DNA of 21,811 bases from a virus. Where the stretch lies: the IMG/VR virus record IMGVR_UViG_3300008259_000251, positions 1-21,811 of that record; one strand, 5' to 3'. Positions 1-20,704 of the stretch are shown one piece after another; position 1 is the stretch's first letter, and each line of letters begins with the position of its first letter. The position numbers were made by a program, and so were the translations under genes. The notes below the pieces were generated by a model that saw only the letters and a program-made list of their open reading frames with translations, was not told the origin of the DNA and searched no databases.

Positions 1-3000
1 CTTATTGAAGTAAAGAAAAGGTCATTCCATAACAGCGAAAGATCGTTTATAAAAATGTCTTGTTTGATTGCTTGCAGTATAGTTCTAAGTTCTAATGTTG
101 GCAACAGATCATAGCTACCTATGCCATAGTTGGCTGTTGCATCAAATCCTAAAGTTATTGTTGAACTGCTATACAAGTTAGAACTGAATACAATAGTTCC
201 GTTTTGTCTAGCTATTAAATTATAATTTCCTAGTATGGATCCCAATCCTGGTTGAGTTTTTTGTAATAGGGCCCAGCCGCCTGTGCCATATTCTTTTAAA
301 CGCAGTATGTCTCCTAATTCTATTTGAATAGTTGGTTCTTCATACAGATTTCCAATTTCTTTTACTATTCTGCTTACTGACGAATATCCAGGTGCATACC
401 AGTCTGTATAACTCCAATATTTGGTTGTATCAAATCCCTGTGATGCTGATCTAAAAAAAGTTTTACGTATGTCGTCCCAACTATATATTGACCAAAATCC
501 GTCAGCAGTTTCGTCGTTCCTTACTAGTACTGCAAACTGTCGTGCAGTAGCCGTAGCTGAAGTATATTTTTTTCCTTTAGCTGTTACTGACACTGATGAT
601 ATTCTACCTTGATTATCCAAGGTAGCAACTGCTTTTGCTCCGTCTACAAGATTTACTCTAAGACTGGCTTGTGTAACTCTTAGTGTATTTAGAACTGTGA
701 GATCAATGTATGTGTCAACCGCTTGATCATACAAATCTAACGTAGATGCAGGAATACTATCTACTTGATTTAATCTTGTAAAATCAATTATATCCGCAAA
801 AGGACGAGTTAACAAAATAGTATTGACTTTATCTAAAACAATTTTTAATATTTTGTTATTGTCTTTGAACATGCTTTGACGAGGTCTAAAGGACAGTCCA
901 TATTTTTGTTTTATTGGTAACTTGGGGTCTGGTACAGTGTTACCTGATTGATCAAAACCAACTAGACTATCAATCCATTTGGTTTCAAGATTTGTGTTTG
1001 GCTCACTGCCTACCATACCTTCGGTCAGTAGTTGATATTCTGTATGAACTATACCGTTACTTGTTTTGGTATTTTTAAATTCAATGTTAAACAACGCTTT
1101 TTCAACACGCAGTAATTGATCAAAATTATAAAATAAAAACTTATCTTTATCAATCAATGCTACTATAGGAATTCCAGACGATTGAGGACTAGATATTAAA
1201 GAGGATACCGATGCTGATGATACTCGTCTACCTGGCACATTTGCAGGAACTAGTGTTTTATTTTTTACCCAGAAATAGTATCTAGTACCAACAAGTACTC
1301 CAGTTGAAGAATTGTAAATCTCTTTAATACTATAAACGGTATCTTGAGGATATAGAGGCTGACCCGATATTCCCTCAGACAGGCCTTCGTTTGTGTCAGC
1401 AAGTATACTCCAATCCGATGGCAGTAATACAGACTCTACCCACTCATAGACATCAATACTAGATCCATAGGCCATTTGATTCCAGTGCCCTTGTCTATAG
1501 GTAAGGTCACCTTGTTCATATTCTATCCATTTTACCTTGCTTAGATCCCACCATAGCTTACCAACATTTTTTTCAAACCATGCCTGATCAGCATCTACTA
1601 CTTGTTCGTCTGCACCTATAGTATAAGTGGCAGGATCATAGACTGTTTTGTAGGCAATTTCTTGTTCAGCCAGACCTAAGATTTTTAATTTAGCATGATC
1701 GATTATATCTATGTCTGCTAGTTTTATACTGTTTTCGGGATCGTAAATTTCAATAGATTTAAATAGTTCTAGATTGGCTCTTAAACCCTGCGAAGCTGTT
1801 ACATTCCAGATTTGTATAAACGGGTCTTTTCTAAATAATCGTGTCATTCCTCGACTGTCGTCAAGTAGGTTTTGATCAATCTCTGTTAATCGATATGTTG
1901 GTGATCCTGTTATAATTACAGACCCAACACAGTCTAAACTATATCCAAAAGATTCAGCATTCTTTAAATCTGCTTCTAATTTTTCAGCTAGAATAAAGAC
2001 ATTGTCTTTTCTTTCAAATACATATACCTGTCCGGTGTATCCTTGATTTTTTGTAAATGTTGTAGAATTACCGTCAAAGGAAGTAGCATCTCCAACATCG
2101 AATCTTACCGGTAATCTGTAGGGAGCATTTTTAGCTCCTACTACTATTCTTGTTGCATCAGAATCAATAGATACTGCAGATCCAAACAACGCATTATTGT
2201 AATATTCAAAACTATATAATTTTTGTGCTAACGAATACTCAGGCAATTGTGTACTAGTTGTATTAAACACAAACACCGAACCTTGATTTTGAAATCTTAC
2301 ATCTGCTTCGGGACAAGAAACTACTAGAACACTACCAGAGGCGTTAATGTCCATGGCGAATCCAAATCTATCACCAGCTGATATATCTACCGCACTGTTA
2401 GTTAGATTTAATTGCTCTATGTTTTCCGCTGTGATCACTTGTTGTAATTCGTAAACCTTATTAGCGTTTCGTTTATAGATATAAATTTTGCCAGTGATTA
2501 ATGTATTGTCGTTGGAGATCTGTTGCCAGAACTCATATCCATTATCTGGTGGTTGATTTTTACTAACAATGGTGCTGTCTAATGCAGAATCTGGTAACGG
2601 ATTTTGATCAAACGGTTCTACTAGTCTGTAGTATAAACTGTTGCGCAATACCACATCTCCTTCTCTATATTCCTGATATGAAATCCAAGGTCCTTTATAT
2701 CTGGTAAAATATTGACCATCACTGTTTGGGGATCCTACTACTAGTATACTTCCGTCTTGATTCATTGCAAGACTTGTTCCGAATTCATCTCCAATTTTTA
2801 CCAATTCAGAAATCTGATCAGGAGTAAAAAGCCCCACAGGTATTGTAGAGTCACTGTAAGGTGTTGTAGAGTCATCGTCGTCTAACGCAATGTTTGTAGG
2901 TAACGAATTCTGAGTACTTATAGAATCTAATTCTATCCAATCTATAGTATCTAATCTGCCCGCTTCGTTGACTGGTATAGAACTGCCGTCACCTTGATAA

Positions 3001-6000
3001 TCAACTATAGCTTGATAAAGTCTATTGTCTTGCCATACTATAGATCCCGTTGGATAAAATTTTGTTCCGTCATAGATTCCTACATAGTTGGTGTTTTCAA
3101 GATGTAACCATCCCTGAGTTTGAATTTCTCGATAGGTAATTGTTAAGGTAGCGCCGCTTCCGTATCCAGGAGCAGAAGTTGTAGGTTTGGTGCCGGGACG
3201 AACTGTTGTAAATCTTCCACGAGATATCGGCGTGGCTGCTGTAACTATTCCACTATCGATAGTTGCTAAAAAAGTTGCTGTTTGATTATCATAGGTTACC
3301 GTTAATGTTGTTGGTTCAATAACTGCTGGCCTAAAAGTCACAGACACTAAGCAACCAACAGACAAAGATGATCCGTCCGAGGACTCGCTTGGTTCAGCAG
3401 TGACTAATAACGGTGCTGAAGGTAAATCAATCCACAGGCCACGATCCAACGGAGTAACTGTTTTTACGCTGAATGCAACGCTGTTGTCTCCGGGAATAAG
3501 TGTTTCTGTATCTACTTCTGCAGTAAATGTTGCGGTCTGTCCTAGATACGTCACTGTTAATACTAACCCGGCGGATTCTGGATTGTATCCAACTCCGCCG
3601 TCAACAATTGTTACTGTATCAATTTCATAAACAGTATAATCCGATCCCCCCGAAGCTACTTCTGCAGATTCAACTTCAGTAACTGTAATTGTGTCGTATT
3701 CGTAAAGATACACCCTACCACGGTTGTCTCGAGCGCCAACAGCTGACACTGCCAAGAAATATTTTCCTAGAGTAGAACCAATTGTTAGATTTGATCCAAA
3801 AAATTCATCTTGAGCAGGTCTAGGACTAACTATCGACAAAGATTCAATCCATTGGTTGTTTACAAATTTATAGATAGTTATCAGTCCCTGGCCAGCATAT
3901 CCAGCAAATCTACCGGTGCTGTTTTCTTCTATTAATGTTGCAGGTATCCAATCGGCAGTGTTAAATGTTATAAAAGTTGAGTCACCTAAATTAGATAACG
4001 CATTCCCTGTAAAATCATTAACTGCTTTCCAAAGTTTTCCGTTATATAATACAATTTCTCCAGCAAAATAACTGTCTGTAGGTTTAAAGTCGCCCATGAA
4101 CTTGCTGGCAATAAAACTAGCATATGGCGAGCCTATTATTAAATATTCACCGTCTTCGGATGCGGCCATAGAAAGTCCAAACGATCCATTGAGTTTTAAT
4201 TTCACAGATGTAGGTGGCGATATAATTTGATATAATTTTAATCCTTCGGCTGTTTCAACATAGGAAAACACATAGCCTGTGGCAGGCATACTAGAAATGA
4301 CTTGTTTTAATTTTTCTATGTATAGAACTTTAGTGCCGCTGCCAATTGGCGTTTCAATTCCGTATTCTATTAAATCTTTTCCAGAATATTGTTTGTTTTT
4401 TTCTATAACTTCCCATCGTTGATTTTCGTTTGAATCTACCCATAATTTGGTACTATTAGGCAATGCAGCAACATCTGTTAGATTTAGATTGTCATAGTTT
4501 TCTATTCTTGAAGATTTAAAAACATTCAAAGTTGTGTATATACTATCTGAAAATTCAGGATTTAATGTTGAGGCCGAAAGCTCTACGGTAATAGTGTTAG
4601 ACGACACAGCTATTACTTTAAAAAATCCTTCCAGGTCAACAATGTCTTTTATCCCAACAATATTGTCAACTACAATATCGTGGAGTTTGTCTAGGGTTAT
4701 TACTACTGATAAATTATTTTTTGTAATTCCAATTATTCTTAACAATGGCAAATTCACAAACCTTAGCACATTCCAAGACTGCTTATCAAATGTGATCCAC
4801 ACTGTTGAATTTTCTACAAAATTATTAATATCCAGTTGCAATAATTCTTCTGTGTTTTTTACTACAAAATCAACCTGATCCTGTCTAACATAGCCTGCTA
4901 TTCTAGATGTGGGTTCTAGGTATGTTTGAGGAGTAATACTGGTTGTAAAAGCACCATCTCTTGCTAGAGTAAAATTTTTAGAATCTATTCTATAAATTTG
5001 ATCAGTTTTTATATCGCTGATCTGTTCATTGATTATCTCCACTGGCTGTGGATTAATTTCTAGGCTACTGGAAAATATTTCAAACTCAGTTTCGTTAATT
5101 TCAGCTAGGTTGCCTAATCTTCCTGATCGAAATGCCCATTCTTCGTTGACTACAATACTGTCTTCGTCAGTTTTGCTGAGTTTATCAAATATTTTGGTGA
5201 TTGCATTTAGGGTACCTTTTTCTCGGATAAACCCTTGATATAGTTGGAACTGCACTATATCGTCTTGTGCAATATTCTGTAGATAGTCTCTGGTTTGATA
5301 GCCAATTAGATGTCGGCCAAGATCACGCTGACTAGATCCCAGACCGTCGGAATCAAGATTATAATAGTCTTCAAATTGATTTATTTTATAATCAAAATTA
5401 GGAATCAATTGTTTTACAGGTGTGCTATCTAACTTTGTCCAAAAGCTGTCGTTGAACTCTACTTGACTAGTGTGATTTTTTTTACAGGTCCAGTTTATTG
5501 ATTTAAAATTAACAATGTCTCCCATTCTGTACTCGTAGAATGGGCTCCAAATCTGTATGTTAACATTGTCAAAAATAAATCCCGGACTGGTGTAATCGCC
5601 ATCCCAGTCTACTGTGCGGAATCCTCTAGATTTAATACGATCTTGTCTATATCCTGTAGGTTTATTATATATCACATCATTGAATACAGTAACATCTGAA
5701 AATATAGTTACGTGTTCTTTTAGTATAAAGTGCGCTTTAAAAAAATAAATTCCGTCTGATGTATTAGTTACTGTAATTGTTAAATTTTGAAAATCTCTGT
5801 TAACATTTATAAATGCAGGCAACAACGCAGTTCCGTCTGCTTTAAGTATCTGATATGGATAAAAATTATCAAACAAATTATCTGCTACGCCAAGCGCAAA
5901 ATTAACATTTACTTTAGATGCAGATGGGCTAATACTGATCAACGCACCAACGTCCCAGTTATGTTTGGTCCAGAACATAAACTCTTTGCTTGAGGTCAAC

Positions 6001-9000
6001 CAATCTTGTGATGTTTTATTATCTCTGTCATATTGATCAAATACAAAACCCTGAGATGATAGGTATTCTCCGTATCCTAATAAAAAATCTACTACTTTTT
6101 GTATGGTTGGCAGGATTTCACCATAACTCAATACGTTAGGTCGTAATTTATAAAATGTTTTTCTATATAATGCATTTACAGAACCAACCGTGGAAGGTTG
6201 AGGAATTTGCTTGAGATTTTCTGTATTAAAATTAACGCCGCTGGTAAAACTTTTTATTGATCTAAAATAGTTATTACCGTTTTGAATACAGGTTCCATTT
6301 CCATAGAATTTTTCTGGTTGCCATTTTACAATGTCTTCGCTGACACCGCCTACAGCAATCACTGAATCGCCAGGACTTTCAATAGCACCGAAGTAATTAA
6401 AATACGGAAACTGATTATCGTAGCCTGTTATTTTCCATCCACCGTCAGTTTTTTCTATCAGCACACCACTATATGAAATTGTAGACACCGGAGTACTAGA
6501 GTTAAAAATAATTTCATAATTTTCAGGCGGTATAAAAATACTGCTCGACGAAGACCTAGGCGACTTGCTATCTAAAAGATACTTTTGCTGTGTTTGGTCA
6601 ACAAAGCCTGACAATCTTGTAGTTAGGTTGACATCGATTCCTGAAATTTTGTCTAGTAATAGTGATTCTTGTTGCCCCTGGCTTCTTAAATAATTTATAA
6701 CATAGCAAACTAGACCGGCAGATTGTGAAACTCCCACGATAGGCATTTCAAAATTATCTAGAGTATCAAACACTCTAGTTTTTTTATTAACAGTTTGTCC
6801 TATGATATTTTTATCAAGTTTTGATATGTCAAAACTATTATTGATATAATTAAAAGGTTTGAGTAGGCAAAGAGCTTTAACTAACGCAAATGGCCATTCT
6901 GAACTAGATCTCCATCCGTATTCTACTGGGCCCATATCGCCTAACTTAAAGGCTCCGGTATTGTTAATTAGGCTGAAATTTTTGGCTAGACCGGAATCTA
7001 AGGGACTTAATAAATTGCCAAGATCGTCCGTTGGAATATGTGATAGTATACTGGCTCTTTTGTATCTGTCATATATACCGGCTCGAGATCCTTGTCGAAT
7101 AATTCCGTCTCTTAAATCTTCCCAAAGAATTAAGTTCCCTCGAGTATACGGGGCAGGGCCGTATTCACTTTCCCACCATGTAGGTTTTTCACTAAATCCC
7201 AACATTTCCCACGGACACTGGTGCGGTCGGGTTGTATCATAGAACCACTGATATACTCCTCTCCAGTAGCCTGGTAAGCTAGATGTACCCAGGCTATCTG
7301 TCATATTATTATAGGTATAGGTGAAACTGTTTTCAGTGTCAAGATACTGATTAATTGTGTAATTAATATTTGTTCCACTTATCCATTTTAAGAAATCTTG
7401 GGCAACAATAACGTCAACAAGATCTTTTGAATATTCTGCATTTCCATAATATCCTCCTACTACGTCATCGATGTTGAAAATAGATTCGTTGTATTGAGAC
7501 TTTATATTGTTGTAAATTCTTAATTCTAGTTCTAAAAGAATGTCATCTCGATAGTCTCCAAACGCTTTTGTAATGCTGCCGTCGTGTCCTCGAATAACTT
7601 CTATAGGTTCGATATAAGTATCATCAATGAATTTGCTAGGTAGATATTTTTTGTATAGGCCTAGACTTGTGGGAGTAAAAGGTATAAAATTAAAAGCTGT
7701 AGAAACGTATTCTCTAATGACAATTAGATCACCTTCTATAACTGGTATTAGAAGTGTTACGTATGATGCGTTTTCTGAAAACTGATAGTCTCTGCCTTGT
7801 ATTAACTGTTGTTTGTTTTTGTAAAGATATACGGCCTTGCGACTTAGTGTGTTTAGATCAAAGTAATTTGATAATCTAAAATTGCTAATATCAATGTCAT
7901 CCACTATGTATGCAAGTTCAGTGTATGCTCCGCTTCCTATCATGTCTGAATCAACAAATGCTGAATTTTCAGTTTTAGCTTTTCCGTATTCAGAAATTAT
8001 TTGATCAAGAGACTCTGCAGGATCATCATTATAGAGTATTTCTTTTGATAATTCAAAAAATTTATTTTTAAAATCAGTATATGCTTGCAGTGCATATTCT
8101 ATTGATTTAATAATATTGATCTGTCTATCGCACAATAAAGTAATAGCTAGAGGCGCAATTCCTGCATGTTTAACAAATCTTCTACCATTATTTTGATAGC
8201 TATCGATGTCTCTAAGATTACTAACTCCTGGATATATTCCAACAAAATTATCTGATAATTCTAACGATGTAGTTACATGGTCAATGGCTTGACCGAGAGT
8301 AAATTTTTCAATGTTTTGATTTAATGGATTTTTTTCAAGTCCGATTGGAATTTCATAATAACCTTGATTTGGTTCTGCATTTGAAAATATTTTGATTACA
8401 ACTGCGTCGTCTGCAAGAAAATCTTTTGCAAAAACAAAAGTACCGTTATTGGCTATTCCTTCATTGATGTTAACTAAACTGTTTTCTAGCCTAACTCCGT
8501 TAACATAAAATAAAATTTTTGTAACATTGATATCTACGGTATTCCAGTCAACTGTGTTAAATTTTACTGTGTTAGTCGTGGCTTGAATTGTTGTACTATC
8601 TAAAATTGGTTGGATGTAATCTTTGTTTGAGAGTTGCCAGCCATTAGCGTATTGGTTAGTTTGATTTAATTTATAAAACCCTTCATTTATTGCCTTTACA
8701 TACGGAACTTTATTAATCTGGTACGTAAACGTTTGAGAATCCCAATTAAATAAAAATTGAATATCTCCTACATTATCTATGTTAAGATATTGAAGACTTA
8801 TTCCTAGTTCAGTATCTACTATGCCATTTCCTTTGGCATAACTTAAGATTTCACTGCCTGAAAATGAACTAGTAGGATAAGATTCTACGTTTGAAAAACT
8901 AATCCCTGTACTGTCAAAGGCATCAAATAATGGTTGCTGTTGTACCTTTGTTTTTTCTTGACTAAGTCTCCAATCAGTACCGGTAAAATAAAACATTTTT

Positions 9001-10742
9001 CCTCGATTTTTTAGACCTCTACTAATTAAAACTGTTTCGCCAATAGTGGAGGCAGAGTCAAGCGAGTCAATTAATGTTATTTGAGAAACTGAAGCACCGG
9101 TGATAGGATCGGGATGTTGTATGAATTTTACATTGTATATTTTGTTGTTGGCTAAAGAATCTGTATCGGCTGTAATTAATACCCGAGCTCCTTCAAATAA
9201 TTCTTCGCCATCAATATTATAACCTGTACTTCCTTCTATTACTGAAAACACGTCCGAAGTAAAATCATCAATATAATCAACCGTAGTTTTAGCTATTGAA
9301 CCGTGCTGATATAATTGAAGACCTGCTATAAATTCTATAATTGGACGTTTAGCTCTCGACGAGTCGGCGCCATCAAAACTAGTTCCGTTGTAGGTGTGTG
9401 CCTTATTCAATACCGATATATGGAACCAACGATTATAACGACTCCACGGATTAAGGTCAGGACTAGATCTGTTAATGGTAATATAATCTTTATCTACAGG
9501 ATAGGCAGATGCATCATCAAATGGTTCTGTATCAAATCCCGAATTATCAAATAGAATTTCAGGAATATTTTTACTAATTAACGGTACTACTAGATCTGTA
9601 AAGTTAACCAGAGTGATGGCTGTGCCTACTCCTTCTATCAACCATTTGTTGTCAGCATATTTTGTTGGTGTTATATTTCCAAAAAATTCAACAATTAATC
9701 CGTTGGTAAACTCTATGCCGTTACTAGAAGTATACGTAGACTTTCCTAATATTTCTTCGTCAACATTTATTTTAGTATTCGAATCCATATCGGATATGAT
9801 AAATCTTCCAAGTCTATCAGGGTAAACAGTGCTTTGATAATATAATACATCTGGTGCATTATAAGGCACTTCAAATGTTAATGTACCAGTGCTAATTCCA
9901 TTGTTTACTATGCCTTGATTATAATCCAGTGCTCCTTGTACATATACATCTTCAATAAACTCCCAGTCTTGTGAATTCAATGTTATGCTACTACCGTCAG
10001 CTGGTGATATCTGTATTTTTGCTTTCCATAGTTTCCCGTCATAGATAACTACCTGTCCTGCATTGTATGGTACAATAGGATCAAAAATCAAAGATCCAGT
10101 ATCATAGTAGCTTCTTATTGCAAATGCTTCGCCTGGTAGTGATATGTTAAACTTGTAAGTTTGTCCTCGGTACAGATTAATCGTGGGATTATTTGTTAAG
10201 CCGTCTGGTGTAAAAATCCAATTGTCGCCAATTCCCTGTCTAACTTTGTAGGTGCTAACAATTGTTGATGCCTGGCCTAAAACTCTTACAGGAGGCGGGC
10301 CGCTCGGTGCCCAATAGTATTGTCTAAAATTAGTAAACTTATCCCAGTCAATAGGAGGATCCCAACTAAAATGATCAGCTTCAGTTTCTAGACTGTCATT
10401 TTCATTTTGATTATTAAAAAATTTCAGCTGATTTTTAAAATCTATATAATCGTAAAAATTTGTTATTCTTGAATTTTCATCGCGAATAACAACACCAGGT
10501 TCTAGTTGATATCTGGAACGAAGTGTATTGTTGCTGTCAAGATAAATGTCTTTGCCATTATATGTTTTTCCAAATCTGCGGCCAACATATCCTACAGTTT
10601 TTTCTAAAACTCCAGGTTGTATCAAAGGATCAACTACTCCTGCTAAAAATTTAGCATTAGCGTCTGTTTGAAAAATCTGTGGTAATAGTTCTACTGCACG
10701 TCTAATTGGTAATTCACTATCTGGAAAAATATTTTTTGCCAT
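1..10742 (-). CDS. Giant virion structural protein, baseplate/tail-fibre-like, partial (3' end beyond window)
   Basis: One reading frame runs from an ATG at 10742 to the left edge without a stop: 3,580 codons plus 2 bases, roughly 390 kDa and still incomplete. The start is supported by an AAGG Shine-Dalgarno six bases upstream, and it lies 8 bases after the gp6 stop. The N-terminus begins MAKNIFPDSELPIRRAVELL. No catalytic motif was recognised. Visible parts include a tryptophan/proline-rich block at about residues 1153-1213 (FYDTTRPHQCPWEMLGF), six FG-GAP-like propeller repeats between about 2180 and 2953, CBM5/12-like modules at about 225, 1467, 1735, 2222, 2558 and 2685, and Gly/Thr-rich beta repeats at about 2365-2530. 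The position directly after gp6 is that of genes 7-12 in T4, but I see no clear likeness to gp7. My inference is a baseplate-attached peripheral or fibre-like protein that may bind cell-surface sugars. The structural role is fairly secure from context; the precise role is unknown. Confidence 0.85.
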   Translation of the reverse strand, partial: MAKNIFPDSELPIRRAVELLPQIFQTDANAKFLAGVVDPLIQPGVLEKTVGYVGRRFGKTYNGKDIYLDSNNTLRSRYQLEPGVVIRDENSRITNFYDYIDFKNQLKFFNNQNENDSLETEADHFSWDPPIDWDKFTNFRQYYWAPSGPPPVRVLGQASTIVSTYKVRQGIGDNWIFTPDGLTNNPTINLYRGQTYKFNISLPGEAFAIRSYYDTGSLIFDPIVPYNAGQVVIYDGKLWKAKIQISPADGSSITLNSQDWEFIEDVYVQGALDYNQGIVNNGISTGTLTFEVPYNAPDVLYYQSTVYPDRLGRFIISDMDSNTKINVDEEILGKSTYTSSNGIEFTNGLIVEFFGNITPTKYADNKWLIEGVGTAITLVNFTDLVVPLISKNIPEILFDNSGFDTEPFDDASAYPVDKDYITINRSSPDLNPWSRYNRWFHISVLNKAHTYNGTSFDGADSSRAKRPIIEFIAGLQLYQHGSIAKTTVDYIDDFTSDVFSVIEGSTGYNIDGEELFEGARVLITADTDSLANNKIYNVKFIQHPDPITGASVSQITLIDSLDSASTIGETVLISRGLKNRGKMFYFTGTDWRLSQEKTKVQQQPLFDAFDSTGISFSNVESYPTSSFSGSEILSYAKGNGIVDTELGISLQYLNIDNVGDIQFLFNWDSQTFTYQINKVPYVKAINEGFYKLNQTNQYANGWQLSNKDYIQPILDSTTIQATTNTVKFNTVDWNTVDINVTKILFYVNGVRLENSLVNINEGIANNGTFVFAKDFLADDAVVIKIFSNAEPNQGYYEIPIGLEKNPLNQNIEKFTLGQAIDHVTTSLELSDNFVGIYPGVSNLRDIDSYQNNGRRFVKHAGIAPLAITLLCDRQINIIKSIEYALQAYTDFKNKFFELSKEILYNDDPAESLDQIISEYGKAKTENSAFVDSDMIGSGAYTELAYIVDDIDISNFRLSNYFDLNTLSRKAVYLYKNKQQLIQGRDYQFSENASYVTLLIPVIEGDLIVIREYVSTAFNFIPFTPTSLGLYKKYLPSKFIDDTYIEPIEVIRGHDGSITKAFGDYRDDILLELELRIYNNIKSQYNESIFNIDDVVGGYYGNAEYSKDLVDVIVAQDFLKWISGTNINYTINQYLDTENSFTYTYNNMTDSLGTSSLPGYWRGVYQWFYDTTRPHQCPWEMLGFSEKPTWWESEYGPAPYTRGNLILWEDLRDGIIRQGSRAGIYDRYKRASILSHIPTDDLGNLLSPLDSGLAKNFSLINNTGAFKLGDMGPVEYGWRSSSEWPFALVKALCLLKPFNYINNSFDISKLDKNIIGQTVNKKTRVFDTLDNFEMPIVGVSQSAGLVCYVINYLRSQGQQESLLLDKISGIDVNLTTRLSGFVDQTQQKYLLDSKSPRSSSSSIFIPPENYEIIFNSSTPVSTISYSGVLIEKTDGGWKITGYDNQFPYFNYFGAIESPGDSVIAVGGVSEDIVKWQPEKFYGNGTCIQNGNNYFRSIKSFTSGVNFNTENLKQIPQPSTVGSVNALYRKTFYKLRPNVLSYGEILPTIQKVVDFLLGYGEYLSSQGFVFDQYDRDNKTSQDWLTSSKEFMFWTKHNWDVGALISISPSASKVNVNFALGVADNLFDNFYPYQILKADGTALLPAFINVNRDFQNLTITVTNTSDGIYFFKAHFILKEHVTIFSDVTVFNDVIYNKPTGYRQDRIKSRGFRTVDWDGDYTSPGFIFDNVNIQIWSPFYEYRMGDIVNFKSINWTCKKNHTSQVEFNDSFWTKLDSTPVKQLIPNFDYKINQFEDYYNLDSDGLGSSQRDLGRHLIGYQTRDYLQNIAQDDIVQFQLYQGFIREKGTLNAITKIFDKLSKTDEDSIVVNEEWAFRSGRLGNLAEINETEFEIFSSSLEINPQPVEIINEQISDIKTDQIYRIDSKNFTLARDGAFTTSITPQTYLEPTSRIAGYVRQDQVDFVVKNTEELLQLDINNFVENSTVWITFDKQSWNVLRFVNLPLLRIIGITKNNLSVVITLDKLHDIVVDNIVGIKDIVDLEGFFKVIAVSSNTITVELSASTLNPEFSDSIYTTLNVFKSSRIENYDNLNLTDVAALPNSTKLWVDSNENQRWEVIEKNKQYSGKDLIEYGIETPIGSGTKVLYIEKLKQVISSMPATGYVFSYVETAEGLKLYQIISPPTSVKLKLNGSFGLSMAASEDGEYLIIGSPYASFIASKFMGDFKPTDSYFAGEIVLYNGKLWKAVNDFTGNALSNLGDSTFITFNTADWIPATLIEENSTGRFAGYAGQGLITIYKFVNNQWIESLSIVSPRPAQDEFFGSNLTIGSTLGKYFLAVSAVGARDNRGRVYLYEYDTITVTEVESAEVASGGSDYTVYEIDTVTIVDGGVGYNPESAGLVLTVTYLGQTATFTAEVDTETLIPGDNSVAFSVKTVTPLDRGLWIDLPSAPLLVTAEPSESSDGSSLSVGCLVSVTFRPAVIEPTTLTVTYDNQTATFLATIDSGIVTAATPISRGRFTTVRPGTKPTTSAPGYGSGATLTITYREIQTQGWLHLENTNYVGIYDGTKFYPTGSIVWQDNRLYQAIVDYQGDGSSIPVNEAGRLDTIDWIELDSISTQNSLPTNIALDDDDSTTPYSDSTIPVGLFTPDQISELVKIGDEFGTSLAMNQDGSILVVGSPNSDGQYFTRYKGPWISYQEYREGDVVLRNSLYYRLVEPFDQNPLPDSALDSTIVSKNQPPDNGYEFWQQISNDNTLITGKIYIYKRNANKVYELQQVITAENIEQLNLTNSAVDISAGDRFGFAMDINASGSVLVVSCPEADVRFQNQGSVFVFNTTSTQLPEYSLAQKLYSFEYYNNALFGSAVSIDSDATRIVVGAKNAPYRLPVRFDVGDATSFDGNSTTFTKNQGYTGQVYVFERKDNVFILAEKLEADLKNAESFGYSLDCVGSVIITGSPTYRLTEIDQNLLDDSRGMTRLFRKDPFIQIWNVTASQGLRANLELFKSIEIYDPENSIKLADIDIIDHAKLKILGLAEQEIAYKTVYDPATYTIGADEQVVDADQAWFEKNVGKLWWDLSKVKWIEYEQGDLTYRQGHWNQMAYGSSIDVYEWVESVLLPSDWSILADTNEGLSEGISGQPLYPQDTVYSIKEIYNSSTGVLVGTRYYFWVKNKTLVPANVPGRRVSSASVSSLISSPQSSGIPIVALIDKDKFLFYNFDQLLRVEKALFNIEFKNTKTSNGIVHTEYQLLTEGMVGSEPNTNLETKWIDSLVGFDQSGNTVPDPKLPIKQKYGLSFRPRQSMFKDNNKILKIVLDKVNTILLTRPFADIIDFTRLNQVDSIPASTLDLYDQAVDTYIDLTVLNTLRVTQASLRVNLVDGAKAVATLDNQGRISSVSVTAKGKKYTSATATARQFAVLVRNDETADGFWSIYSWDDIRKTFFRSASQGFDTTKYWSYTDWYAPGYSSVSRIVKEIGNLYEEPTIQIELGDILRLKEYGTGGWALLQKTQPGLGSILGNYNLIARQNGTIVFSSNLYSSSTITLGFDATANYGIGSYDLLPTLELRTILQAIKQDIFINDLSLLWNDLFFTSI
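1884..4206 (-). repeat. Six FG-GAP-like beta-propeller repeats within the giant protein
   Basis: Six copies of the pattern FG-x-(S/A)-(L/M/V)-x(4-8)-G-x-x-(L/I)-(V/I)-(V/I/T)-(G/S)-(S/A/C) occur in frame. Examples are FGLSMAASEDGEYLIIGSP (about 4120-4190), FGSNLTIGSTLGKYFLAVSA (3740-3805), FGTSLAMNQDGSILVVGSP (2725-2790), FGFAMDINASGSVLVVSCP (2300-2365), FGSAVSIDSDATRIVVGAK (2125-2190) and FGYSLDCVGSVIITGSP (1895-1955). Strands such as GRVYLYEYD, GSVFVFN and GQVYVFERKD follow several copies, as expected for blades of an integrin-alpha-type propeller. Long insertions separate the early copies. The repeat pattern is directly visible; the fold is inferred from the family signature. Confidence 0.75.
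2515..10068 (-). repeat. Scattered CBM5/12 (ChtBD3)-like modules within the giant protein
   Basis: Modules with the pattern Y-x-x-G-(D/E/Q)-(I/V)-V-x-(Y/F)-x-x-x-x-(W/Y)-x-(A/C), mostly ending in a W-x-x-(L/I) strand, recur in frame. They lie at about 9960-10068 (YNAGQVVIYDGKLWKAKI), 5436-5556 (YRMGDIVNFKSINWTCKKNH then FWTKL), 3943-4083 (YFAGEIVLYNGKLWKAV then ADWIP), 2925-3072 (FYPTGSIVWQDNRLYQAI then IDWIEL) and 2515-2691 (YREGDVVLRNSLYYRLV then FWQQI). A weaker one lies at about 6255-6345. This pattern matches the short carbohydrate-binding modules found in chitinases and in some phage tail proteins. Sugar binding is inference: the aromatic residues are present, but the ligand cannot be told. 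Confidence 0.6.
3120..3660 (-). repeat. Gly/Thr-rich beta repeats with a near-duplicate strand pair
   Basis: Within the giant protein, LTVTYLGQTATFTAEVDT (about 3508-3563) and LTVTYDNQTATFLATIDS (about 3253-3310) are near copies about 84 residues apart. A third partial copy, ATLTITY, lies near 3140-3160. A Gly-Gly-x-Gly-Tyr turn (IVDGGVGYNP) precedes the first copy. A related sequence (VSVTAKGKKYTSATATARQF) occurs near 540-640. Such units resemble beta-solenoid or Ig-like stalk repeats of phage tail proteins, but I cannot assign a family. Confidence 0.55.
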
Positions 10743-10750
10743 CTTACACC

Positions 10751-13700
10751 TTAATATGTACTAGAACTGACTGAAACAATTGATGTTCTAGTTTCAACTG
10801 CATTTATAGCTGTTACAATTTCGATATCGTCGACGGTTGCTCCGCTAACAAATATTTCATCTGATCGACTTTGTATTTCAAATAAACTACCAAATGACTG
10901 ACTGAGTTGTCTAGGAACAATAGTCATGTTACTGACATCAGGCGACACTGCATTTGTAATAAAGGTAATTAATTCGCTAACATAAAATCTGTCCCCAAAG
11001 TCCCAATTTTTAATATCAAAAAAAGTATTAATTGAATTAATAATACGCACTTTAAGGTCGTTGTCATTAATTGTTTTGTATGGGTTTTTAACAACTTTAA
11101 ACACGGCCTGTAAACTTTCATCTGCTAACGCACCAAACAATATTTTATAATTTGTTGTATGATAAACTATTTCGTCACTGATAGATTTTATAGCATTGAG
11201 ATTTGTACCAAAACTTATACGTAAGCTATCAGAACTTGGAGCTTCGGGTTTCGCGGCGGCTCCTGCAAGATAATTTCTAAAAGCAGTATCGTATGACCGT
11301 GTTAATAAAAATATATCAACAATGTTGCTAACACTAGGATCAATCCTTCTATCAACGTTTGCATTGTGAATATAATGGAATTTTAATTTATCTCTTCCTA
11401 CATTGGCTTTATAGTTACTCTGCAACTCTAAAATTTTAGAGTTATTAGAAGATACTACTACCTTTTTAATTCTGTCTTCATTGCTGTTATAGAAATATAT
11501 AAAACTGCCTTCTGCATAGTCATCTATGTTGATATTGCTTTCAGTCGGAGTAGCCGTGATAATTTTTGTTGAATTATCAATAAATTCAAAAATTTTATTT
11601 CCTGCTATATCAACTGTTTCTTGAAAAAATAAAAATTTTTCTTCTGCATTTTCAGTCCCAGAAAAATCCGTACCTACAACTTCTTCAAATGCATCTGGGT
11701 CATCTATTATTCCGTCATCGTCAGAATCAGCAAATGAAATTTTGATTTGATCAGCTGCTTCGTAGCCATCTTCGTATCTAATAGTATCACTGATTTCAAA
11801 TGGAATATCTCTAGTCAATGCATTAATTTTTGTAAAATCTGTGTTAATTCCTAGAATTTTAATTTGATCTTTTACTGTTTTTCCGGTTACTGCACTATAT
11901 GTTTTTTGATTTGTGTCAAGATAAAATCTATTCTCACTGATGCTGCCAAATGCATAGTAAAGTCCTCTTACTCGTACATTGTAACGATCGCCTTCTTTTA
12001 CAAAAGCTACTAGCCAAGATGCATCAATTGAACTGTTAGAAACGTCGCCGGTTTTTCCTAAACTAAAATTTATAGTGGTATTCAAATTTGAAGACGTTAT
12101 AATTTTCCATGCCGATTCAACGTAGTCGTATCTTAGACCAAAATTTAGATTATTCAACATGAAATTAATTATTTCATTTTCTAACGCTGTAGGCAAATTG
12201 TTTACAAATTTAGGTATTATTCGAGAAGCCACGGCTCTTGAAGGGATTATATCATTAAATTCAACTGGGCCAAGTCCCGACACTAGAGCGCCGCGATTAG
12301 AATTAGTGCCGTCACCCGCTACCTTAGTAACTTTAGTCCAAATATACGATTTGTAATCAGCATCTTGAGAACTAGTATCGACTTCAACTATTTGATTGTC
12401 TTTGAAAACATTTTTTTTGCCGGTGACTGTTGAAGTGGGAGGAATAAATTTTATTAATGCTCCTACCTTGGCATACTTTAACGTGTTAGTTGTATAGGTT
12501 CCACATTTTAACAAGGCAGAATCTATGGTGTTAATAAAATAACCAGTTGAATTATTAATGTCGTTGGTTATCTGTGTCCAGGCGGTAGTTTGGTCTACAA
12601 AAACAATTTTGTTGTATTTTGTAAAATAGAAGTTGTAAACTTCAGTGTTTGTAAATAATGGCTCTATACTATTTCTTAAAAAATTAATTATATCTAATCG
12701 ATTAGAATATTTAAAATTTAACGTTTTTTCATTTTCTTCTTTATAGATAAAACCGTCAGTGGCAAAGACATTTACAGAACTATATTTTCCGCTGACATCT
12801 ATAATGTCAAAGTTTCTTGAAATTCCACTAGAAGTTCTGTTTATAGACTTGACCTTTAAGATATCTTGAGAAGCGCCAAACGGTGCCAAGTTATAATCTT
12901 CGCCGGTGATCATTCTGTTTTGTGTATAATACACCGCAGGTGCGTTGGCTCTAATTGAAGCAACGTCTTCAGAGGCTGCTGCAGATGTCACTGAAGTTTT
13001 TAAACTAAGGCTGATTGTGAGTGTGTGTTCTACGCCCTGCTTGTTAGCATATGGAATAGAAACGTTTATTCCTCTCATTTCTGTTGGGCTGATTGTGTAC
13101 ACTAATCCGTTACTGACTCTATAATAAAATCTAAAACTTCCTTGCGGTAAGTTTCCGTAAACTCCGTCACCGAACAGAATATCTACTCTGTCATTGTTTT
13201 TTGTAAGGACTTCGTAGATAGTTCTTACATTGTTTGTAACACTATTATAGGCAATATTGTTTCCTACAAGAGACGATACTCGTGTCCATTCCGCTTGTTG
13301 TGTGCCTGCTGTATCTAGGCCAAATAACCATAGATCGTCATTGTTGATATTTTCTGCATCAACTGCTACTTTTTCATTAGTGGTCGGAACTGCAATGGCA
13401 AAATCTGCTAGCTCTAGACTACCTTGCTTAAACATTAAAAAGAAACCAGTGTTTGAACTTCCTGCGCCACGAGAATCGTTTTTGTATATAAAACCTAGCT
13501 CATTTTTTGGCACTGGTGGTTCTTCGTATATATTTTCTTTATCAATAAAACTTGTGCTCACCACCTCAAATGACATGCCGCGGCCGGCAACTGTTTTTGT
13601 ATAGGCAAATAACGGTACATCTGCTAACAATGTTCTAAATCTATATTGTTCAGTTGGTATCGTCTGTATAATTGCAGAGCCTTGACTACGGCCAAATTCA

Positions 13701-18498: not shown

Positions 18499-18798
18499 TC
18501 ACACTCCTAGATACTTTTGAAGATTTGATTTCTTGGGGCAAAAAATTTTTCTTCCTGGTTCAAAATCATAGATAGGATCTCTAATAGTATCCATATTCCT
18601 TTGAGCAAACACCCACCATAATTTAGGATCTCCGTAAAGGTCATAGGCCAACAGGTCCGGTCTATGTCTGTATTGTCCCTCAATAGCATACAAAAAATCA
18701 TCAGGTTCGGACGGAACTGGTCGTATTTCTAACAATTCAAGATAGAGATTGTTTTGCGGCGTATTGGCCCAAGGAGAAGATCTTTTATACTCGGCCAT
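18499..18798 (-). CDS. 53: Baseplate wedge protein gp53-like
   Basis: The 99-aa product carries the gp53 core: YRHRPDLLAYDLYGDPKLWW followed by VFAQRN and then DPIYDFEPGRKIFCP, a LysM-like arrangement seen in T4 gp53 and related small wedge proteins. In T4, gp53 joins neighbouring wedges and locks the baseplate iris around the hub. T4 gp53 is 196 aa; here only the core remains. The ATG directly follows the TAA of the upstream tube-cap gene and has GGAAG upstream, so translation is probably coupled. Its place between tube-cap and hub genes fits a baseplate assembly operon. Confidence 0.85.
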   Translation of the reverse strand: MAEYKRSSPWANTPQNNLYLELLEIRPVPSEPDDFLYAIEGQYRHRPDLLAYDLYGDPKLWWVFAQRNMDTIRDPIYDFEPGRKIFCPKKSNLQKYLGV

Positions 18799-19431
18799 TT
18801 AGATACTTCCTACAATTGAACCGTTGGCATAATTTTTTAAGTTAAACTCTCGAAGTTTTGTTCTATTATAAATTGGAGATACTGTTACTGAAATTTCACT
18901 TACTACAGGAACCCAAGTTGAAGAATTATTTTTATTGCATTTGATGTAATTGACTTCAGGAGGCAGTGTTACACTGAACGATTTTATGATAACCGGAACA
19001 CTGTTGAATACTCTTGAACCATATCCAGAAAGATTACAGATAATTGGTGGATTTCCCACATTATCTCCTGAACCAAACCACATCTTGGTTGCTGTTTTAA
19101 AAAATGTTGTTGCTTCAATCCAATACTCTGCGTCTTTTGCAGTTTCTGCAGAAAACTCTCCAGTGATTGTGATGTCGTCTATTTGACTGTTTTTATATGC
19201 TTGAAAAGGTTGATTACTATGCACGGGATCAATTTGTGTATAATTCGCTTTAGAGGACACAGTAACACTAGGAGTGTAAGGCCATACTACACCGTTGGTA
19301 CTTTGCAATCTTTCAAATGCATTACCAAATAGTCCAAAATTTGCATTTTGCTCGGCCAAGACTGAGTATATTGTTGAGGGCACCTGCGGCGCTGGAAATT
19401 GAAGTAGCCAGTGATTGCAATCCGGAACCAA
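18799..19431 (-). CDS. Tail tube cap/baseplate protein gp48/gp54-like, C-terminal part (second frame)
   Basis: This frame encodes the folded part of a tube-cap protein. It contains GVVWPYTPSVTVSSKANYTQ, a helix (AKDAEYWIEATTFFKTATKM), a proline strand (NPPIICNLSGYGSRVFNSVP), and VIIKSFSVTLPPEVNYIK followed by SEISVTVSPIYNRTKLREFN. This strand-helix-strand order resembles the C-terminal halves of T4 gp48 and gp54, which sit on the hub and start tube assembly. The frame is open from a stop at 19450-19452; the listed start is a TTG, and a GTG lies at 19383, but neither has a Shine-Dalgarno site. The first residues after the TTG look non-native, while convincing protein begins near VLAEQNANFGLFGNAF. 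It is therefore more likely the continuation of the upstream frame (19786-19322) by a +1 shift than an independent gene. Joined, the product would be about 328 aa, close to T4 gp54 (320) and gp48 (364). Confidence 0.7.
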   Translation of the reverse strand: MVPDCNHWLLQFPAPQVPSTIYSVLAEQNANFGLFGNAFERLQSTNGVVWPYTPSVTVSSKANYTQIDPVHSNQPFQAYKNSQIDDITITGEFSAETAKDAEYWIEATTFFKTATKMWFGSGDNVGNPPIICNLSGYGSRVFNSVPVIIKSFSVTLPPEVNYIKCNKNNSSTWVPVVSEISVTVSPIYNRTKLREFNLKNYANGSIVGSI

Positions 19432-19786
19432 GCCCGCCGGCTGACAATCCTAGTTTACTAATACTGGCTCCGATGTCAGCAGCTCGATTTGATAGATCCC
19501 CAACATTAGGTAGACTCTGTGCAAGATTTGCCACATTGCCTAAAGCTGTTTTTGCAAATCCAGCAAGTTGGTTGGCTCCGCTTTGAAGATCGCCGGTTAC
19601 ACCGCCGAGTGGACCTAGGCCGCTGTTTAAAGCTCCTCCGAGCTGGGCTACTTTTAAGTCTAAACCGCTTTTAAGCGAAGCAAACTTTTCTCCCACTGCA
19701 GAAACATTAGCTGCATTGGTCACTGAGGACACAGCTTCAGATACTGATGCAATAAGTTTTGCTTGCGGATTGATTGGCAATGGCAT
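19322..19786 (-). CDS. Tail tube cap/baseplate protein gp48/gp54-like, N-terminal part (first frame)
   Basis: This is the first gene of the late minus-strand operon. The ATG has CGGAGA seven bases upstream and lies about 20 bases after a late-promoter box. The 154-aa frame is low in complexity: rich in Ala, Gly, Ser and Leu with amphipathic stretches (VAQLGGALNSGLGPLGGVTG, LGLSAGGLGSGLQSLATSIS). It then ends in a short, out-of-character tail (LGRAKCKFWTIW). T4 gp48 has a comparable low-complexity Ser/Asn-rich N-terminal region before its folded tube-like part. The coding character passes to the overlapping frame at about 19322-19380, so I read this as the N-terminal half of one gp48/gp54-like protein. 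If it really is a separate gene, its role is unknown. Confidence 0.65.
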   Translation of the reverse strand: MPLPINPQAKLIASVSEAVSSVTNAANVSAVGEKFASLKSGLDLKVAQLGGALNSGLGPLGGVTGDLQSGANQLAGFAKTALGNVANLAQSLPNVGDLSNRAADIGASISKLGLSAGGLGSGLQSLATSISSAAGALNNILSLGRAKCKFWTIW

Positions 19787-19805
19787 AATAAATCTCCGTA
19801 TACTC

Positions 19806-19813
19806 TATTTATT
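19806..19813 (-). promoter_or_regulatory. Late promoter box AATAAATA for the baseplate operon
   Basis: Read on the minus strand the sequence is AATAAATA followed by GAGTATACGGAG. It fits the T4 late-promoter -10 box (TATAAATA) and the NATAAATA form described for marine T4-like phages, which is recognised by RNA polymerase carrying gp55. The transcript would start near 19799 and reach the Shine-Dalgarno site almost at once, then the ATG at 19786. I noticed no second exact copy elsewhere on either strand, which fits one long late transcript. Confidence 0.7.
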
Positions 19814-19825
19814 CTTGAAAAAATG

Positions 19826-19834
19826 TGCTATAAT
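19826..19834 (+). promoter_or_regulatory. Extended -10 promoter (TGC-TATAAT) for gp55
   Basis: A perfect TATAAT at 19829-19834 is preceded by TGC, making an extended -10 element that needs little -35 contact. The -35 position (about 19806-19811, TATTTA) is poor and coincides with the late box of the opposite strand. The gp55 Shine-Dalgarno AGGAGA (about 19844-19849) and ATG (19856) follow. It is probably an early or middle promoter used by the host sigma factor. Confidence 0.65.
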
Positions 19835-19855
19835 ATAAGTAATAGGAGAACCCAT

Positions 19856-20704
19856 ATGATAACTACCGTACCTAAAATCAAGTATCTAACCAATAAAGAT
19901 TTACTAAAAGAAATACATTTAAGTAAAAATACCTACTGTTATTTTGAAAAATCTGAATACGCAGACTATGATTTAATTGTATCTGATTTATCAAAAATCA
20001 ACATACGCACCATAGCAGACGCCAAAAGAAATAAAGCATCTAAACTGTCAAAGTCTGCACAAGAGCAGGCACAGCTGACAAGTAGCAAAAAACTACCTGC
20101 TAAAGAATTTGAAGTTGACTACAAGAAGGTAGCAAAAACTGATGTTGTATTTAGAATAATGACGTTTGATCATATTCCCCTGGCTCCTGGACGTAAAAAG
20201 ACCTTGAAGAATACTGCTGACAGCCACGACAAGGTAAACTTTCCTCCATTCCAACACTGGAAGTTTGATGATAGCAATAACTTGGTGTGTGTAGGTAAAA
20301 GCCACTGGAAAGGCGATTTGATAAATGGTGCTTTTAACAAAGAACACGGAAAAATGACAAACAATCTAGCTCGTATGTTTTTAAAACTATGCGAGAGATA
20401 TGCCACTCGAGGCAACGTTCGAGGTTATACCTACAACGACGAAATGCGTGGACAGGCTATTCTACAGCTAACACAGATTGGTTTACAGTTTGACGAATCA
20501 AAATCAGACAATCCCTTTGCCTACTATACTGCTGCGGTTACCAATTCATTTGTTAGAATCATCAACATTGAAAAACGCAATCAAAATATTCGAGACGATA
20601 TTTTAGAAATTAACGGAATGAACCCTAGTTGGACTAGGCAAAATGCGTCAAGCGGTGGAGGAGCCGTGAGTACTGGATCTGTGGATGGTAGTGATTGGGA
20701 TTGA
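19856..20704 (+). CDS. 55: Late-transcription sigma factor gp55, with large internal insertion
   Basis: gp55 is the phage sigma factor that directs host RNA polymerase to late promoters. The ATG at 19856 is chosen because AGGAG lies just upstream; an in-frame start at 19763 would place 31 extra residues across the promoter. The 282-aa product matches T4 gp55 (185 aa) in two blocks. One is N-terminal KIKYLTNKDLLKEI (8-20; T4 has a KYNYVNNKELLQAI-like start). The other is the sigma core at about 168-250 (LARMFLKLCERY, YTYNDEMRGQAILQL, DNPFAYYTAAVTNSFVRIIN, then EKRNQN). Between them lie about 120 extra residues, including HWKFDDSNNLVCVGKSHWKG and HGKMT. The end is Gly/Ser-rich and finishes in an acidic DGSDWD. 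In T4 the gp55 C-terminus binds the gp45 clamp through an acidic/hydrophobic motif; this tail may do likewise. Identity is strong; the insertion has no assigned role. Confidence 0.9.
   Translation: MITTVPKIKYLTNKDLLKEIHLSKNTYCYFEKSEYADYDLIVSDLSKINIRTIADAKRNKASKLSKSAQEQAQLTSSKKLPAKEFEVDYKKVAKTDVVFRIMTFDHIPLAPGRKKTLKNTADSHDKVNFPPFQHWKFDDSNNLVCVGKSHWKGDLINGAFNKEHGKMTNNLARMFLKLCERYATRGNVRGYTYNDEMRGQAILQLTQIGLQFDESKSDNPFAYYTAAVTNSFVRIINIEKRNQNIRDDILEINGMNPSWTRQNASSGGGAVSTGSVDGSDWD

Follow-up and report, generated by a model that had tools for sequence, protein, structure and literature searches.

In phage T4, gp48 and gp54 make the platform where the tail tube polymerises (PMC3004832). Homologues of the gene described here occur in the jumbo phages Atu_ph07, 121Q and PA5oct (PHROG 12050), where a homologous tube domain is retained at 28-36% identity and a gp53-sized gene adjoins. 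In each of these phages the homologue is a single frame. We analysed a stretch of viral DNA of 21,811 nucleotides, referred to as the window, in which the corresponding gene appears as two overlapping minus-strand frames. A preliminary description had read this arrangement as a tube-cap gene divided by a +1 frame change, and had offered programmed frameshifting, a real mutation or a one-base assembly error as its cause. Our comparison with relatives makes it very probable that a loss of 92 bases, private to this contig, breaks an ordinary tube-initiator gene, and nothing in it requires a frameshifting mechanism or points to one.

Identity and surroundings of the tail-tube initiator gene

The tube-initiator gene strongly matched PHROG 12050 (virion structural protein), whereas a Pfam search of the gene and a DNA-level search of phage records returned no match. 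A Foldseek search with a structure model of an intact orthologue (residues 162-344) retrieved 6j0n_b, from the baseplate of a contractile injection system (1.1e-04), and the T4 baseplate chain 5iv5_BE (residues 39-358, 3.3e-04). We infer that chain BE is gp48, as residues 39-358 fit this protein, which has 364 aa and is present in entry 5iv5. The tube-domain model, of moderate confidence (residues 162-344, pLDDT ~60-83 over most of its length), aligned with 5iv5_BE at Z 8.7 and an rmsd of 4.6 over 144 residues, and reached Z 8-9.7 with many chains of baseplate initiators; outside the tube domain both structure models were poor. The model predicts a tube-like beta-barrel of the kind found in contractile-tail initiators. 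This relation is visible by fold only, since comparing sequences against PDB entries and against T4 gp48 brought no useful result, and hhalign against the single T4 gp48 sequence, run with a shallow profile, returned a probability of 0.03%. The gene thus resembles T4 gp48 in tube-domain fold and length, and differs from it in gene neighbours and in the lack of sequence similarity detected with that single sequence and shallow profile.

The genomic surroundings are those of a baseplate gene, among hub and wedge genes. Directly downstream lies a gp53-like baseplate wedge gene (18499-18798, minus strand; PF11246 1e-05, phrog_7145 2.6e-28), and the same-strand series after the tube initiator continues with gp5-, gp25- and wedge-like genes. 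The opposite flank holds a divergent gene for a gp55-like late sigma factor (19763-20704, plus strand; phrog_12791 9.4e-81), whose true start is probably an ATG within this TTG-started frame, and an SbcD gene. 121Q and PA5oct share this gene order, the SbcD and sigma-factor genes likewise lying on the opposite side, and Atu_ph07 has a similar one. In 121Q and PA5oct the N-terminal part of the protein is far shorter, and in Atu_ph07 its length bears no relation to that seen here. Fold prediction and gene context both mark the gene as an ordinary tail-tube initiator of the T4 gp48-like kind. The earlier assignment to a gp48/gp54-like tube cap therefore holds for predicted fold and context, while the comparison with the single gp48 sequence detected no sequence relation.

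Layout of the two frames and the missing 92 bases

The upstream minus-strand frame starts with an ATG at 19786 and stops at 19322, encoding 154 aa. It is preceded by a GGAG Shine-Dalgarno sequence at 19797-19794, in line with the ribosome site originally ascribed to it, and the same 20 bases precede the ATG in the six intact relatives L002-L007. A promoter had been proposed as well; a scan for sigma-70-type promoters upstream of 19786 found none. By eye, we spotted GAATAAATAG just upstream of the Shine-Dalgarno sequence (~19805-19816, minus strand), which we take to be close to TATAAATA, the consensus of T4 late promoters; the gene for the late sigma factor adjoins. The second minus-strand frame is open from 19449, has its first TTG at 19431 and ends at 18799, its only possible starts being TTG or GTG codons without a Shine-Dalgarno sequence. 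The overlap of the two frames spans 128 bases, and if one base were skipped they would be joined into a 328-aa product, as first described.

An IMG/VR scan with the downstream frame as query yielded 14 relatives. The gene start was present in 13 of these, and in each of the 13 the gene ran uninterrupted for 338-385 codons from an ATG of its own. Compared to the window, the three closest contigs, IMGVR_UViG_3300015244_001295 (L003), 3300032310_000044 (L002) and 3300021429_003266 (L004), are ~99% identical and have the same gene, neighbours and start region, including the 20 bases ahead of the ATG, but their orthologues are single frames of 359 codons that contain the 92 bases. A deeper IMG/VR scan with alignment recovered 80 loci at 53-100% identity; every one of them encoded the protein in a single frame, and none had a gap in residues 147-178. 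Judged from these alignments, the tube-initiator gene is intact in public contigs. The preliminary description had pointed to related phages as the place to look for a shared break or for two well-initiated genes, and neither was seen in any of the 80.

Measured against contig G002 (39.5 kb, ~99% identical), which served as reference for length differences, the window is short of 92 bases at 19346-19348; the flanking sequence matches perfectly, and the homology at the ends amounts to 2 bases. The junction, at 19345-19348 on the minus strand, thereby carries a 2-base ambiguity (AA), and the bases missing there are present in all relatives. As the size of the loss equals 3n+2, the rest of the gene moves to another frame. 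The upstream frame comprises residues 1-146 of the tube initiator (19348-19786), after which come eight foreign codons and the stop, whereas the downstream frame carries residues 178-359 (18799-19347), its portion from 19348 to 19449 being the upstream part of the gene read out of frame. The 31 residues removed (147-177) include eight that are invariant among 46 relatives, namely N148, P150, E154, F156, V163, D172, W173 and R174. A beta hairpin at residues 154-167 appeared in one of the two models and with low confidence, so the strands lost are not firmly nameable. The observation that the 19786 frame turns non-native ahead of its stop was thus correct, the sequence being foreign from the junction onward, but the one-base change placed near 19360 is actually a 92-base loss relative to the native gene and lies at 19346-19348.

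The missing bases were sought elsewhere in the window and are absent from it, and a search of viral and genome contigs found the joined junction sequence in none but this one. The change is therefore private to one contig and runs against conservation, as the segment is kept in 80 of 80 relatives. We also considered a bypassing or intron reading, which was rejected because in the relatives this segment is coding DNA read in frame, and the window lacks it altogether. In our reading, an ordinary single-frame gene of 359 codons for a T4 gp48-like tail-tube initiator has lost 92 bases in this one contig; residues 147-177 are removed and the reading frame shifts, so that what remains is an N-terminal frame of 154 aa and a downstream frame lacking a proper start.

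Programmed frameshifting and separate genes as alternatives

Programmed +1 frameshifting near CTC-AGT-C (19360-19366, minus strand), yielding tube-cap proteins of two lengths, one short and one full-length, would account for the two overlapping frames, the rare-looking heptamer close to their overlap and the small number of replacement changes in the downstream frame. Neither the split frame nor the slip site is conserved, however: the gene is undivided in all 80 relatives, in six intact ones (L002-L007) the heptamer simply supplies Leu-Ser codons of frame 0, and in more distant ones different codons stand in its place. Because the 92-base segment is kept in all relatives and absent here, a +1 shift would fail to restore the native protein; the shifted product would still lack the 31 residues with their eight invariant positions. 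The length of the overlap is equally expected from a random deletion. When 92-base deletions were simulated at random places in the intact gene, the mean overlap was 86 bases and 33% of the deletions reached at least 128, which makes the observed overlap ordinary. The alternative frame that makes up most of it is open in L002, L003, L004 and L006 but contains stops in L005, L007, L008, L009 and L012, and is thus not conserved as a reading frame. According to these comparisons, programmed +1 frameshifting as a conserved device is refuted, and we regard its operation at this heptamer as extremely improbable.

The substitution pattern dates the break without identifying its cause. Relative to L002-L004, the 3' part of the gene carries eight window-private substitutions, seven synonymous and one replacement when read in the native frame. 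Assuming that about three quarters of random changes are replacements, the probability of at most one in eight is ~0.0004, which indicates that this part was under native-frame selection until very recently. The break should hence be very recent or artificial. Taken alone, the pattern fits a young deletion or an artefact, and it also fits a downstream frame that is still translated.

A further alternative is that the locus holds two independent genes, with the downstream frame encoding a stand-alone tube domain like the short homologues of 121Q and PA5oct, from which the long N-terminal part is indeed absent. Those short homologues nevertheless still have at their start the D-R first strand, which the window has lost, the downstream frame offers TTG and GTG starts without a Shine-Dalgarno sequence, and none of the 80 relatives is split. 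The alignments refute the two-gene reading for this clade, and for the window itself we give it next to no chance.

A second private loss and the origin of the deletion

Compared to G002, the window shows four length differences: the 92-base loss, a loss of 84 bases, one 9-base repeat unit fewer and 27 extra bases. The 84-base loss (642-643, minus strand) is also private and removes 28 residues in frame from a 3580-aa frame; these residues are kept in 80 of 80 relatives of that region. No direct repeats were found around it, and identity to G002 over 600 bases on each side of its junction was 97.7% on the near and 95.5% on the far side. The intactness of this 10.7-kb frame had been taken as an argument against a generally error-prone sequence. 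It stays open solely because 84 is a multiple of three, and with a private loss inside it the open neighbour is no voucher for sequence quality. The frame itself (3-10742, minus strand) matches FG-GAP repeats (3.3e-13) and the carbohydrate-binding family CBM_5_12 (6e-11), and its product is possibly a giant tail or adhesin protein.

The two remaining differences were recorded as separate observations. In the late sigma factor gene, at ~20663, a 9-base tandem repeat (CTCCTCCAC) is one unit shorter in the window than in four of the closest contigs, an in-frame slippage difference near the C-terminal end of the protein. The 27 bases at 12663-12689, within a 1150-aa wedge-like gene, are present in the window and missing in G002; contig G006 shows no corresponding gap, so the loss seems to have occurred in G002.

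That one contig should bear two private losses, alike in size and both in conserved structural genes, favours an error of local assembly or consensus, which we infer to be the most likely origin of the 92-base loss. Local assembly errors are a known weakness of uncurated metagenome assemblies, and are recognised by a junction without perfect support from any read (PMC7111523). A strain chimera at the 92-base junction was rejected, given that identity to G002 shows no step there. A true deletion in the phage population, carried by a defective or minority genome or surviving by complementation in mixed infection, is a less probable but still appreciable alternative. The 2-base end homology is compatible with it and resembles that of spontaneous deletions, the window contains no N runs, and the smooth identity across the junction points the same way. 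A deletion between long direct repeats was rejected, as none were found around the loss, and the intact region as single-stranded DNA formed no stronger hairpin than shuffled sequences (z -0.84). Weighing against a true deletion, a conserved structural gene would be inactivated and the same contig bears the second private loss in another structural gene. That the deletion is real and a working tail is still built from the shortened or split initiator, via frameshifting or two separate starts, appears very unlikely. The mutation or assembly error initially envisaged was accordingly right in kind and wrong in size.

These findings carry two cautions for viral metagenomics: a small deletion private to one metagenome contig can produce neat overlapping frames, and a neighbouring frame that stays open can hide an in-frame loss, here of 84 bases. 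The split tube-cap gene is not a new feature; frameshifting, if true, would have been a new way of setting tube-cap stoichiometry.
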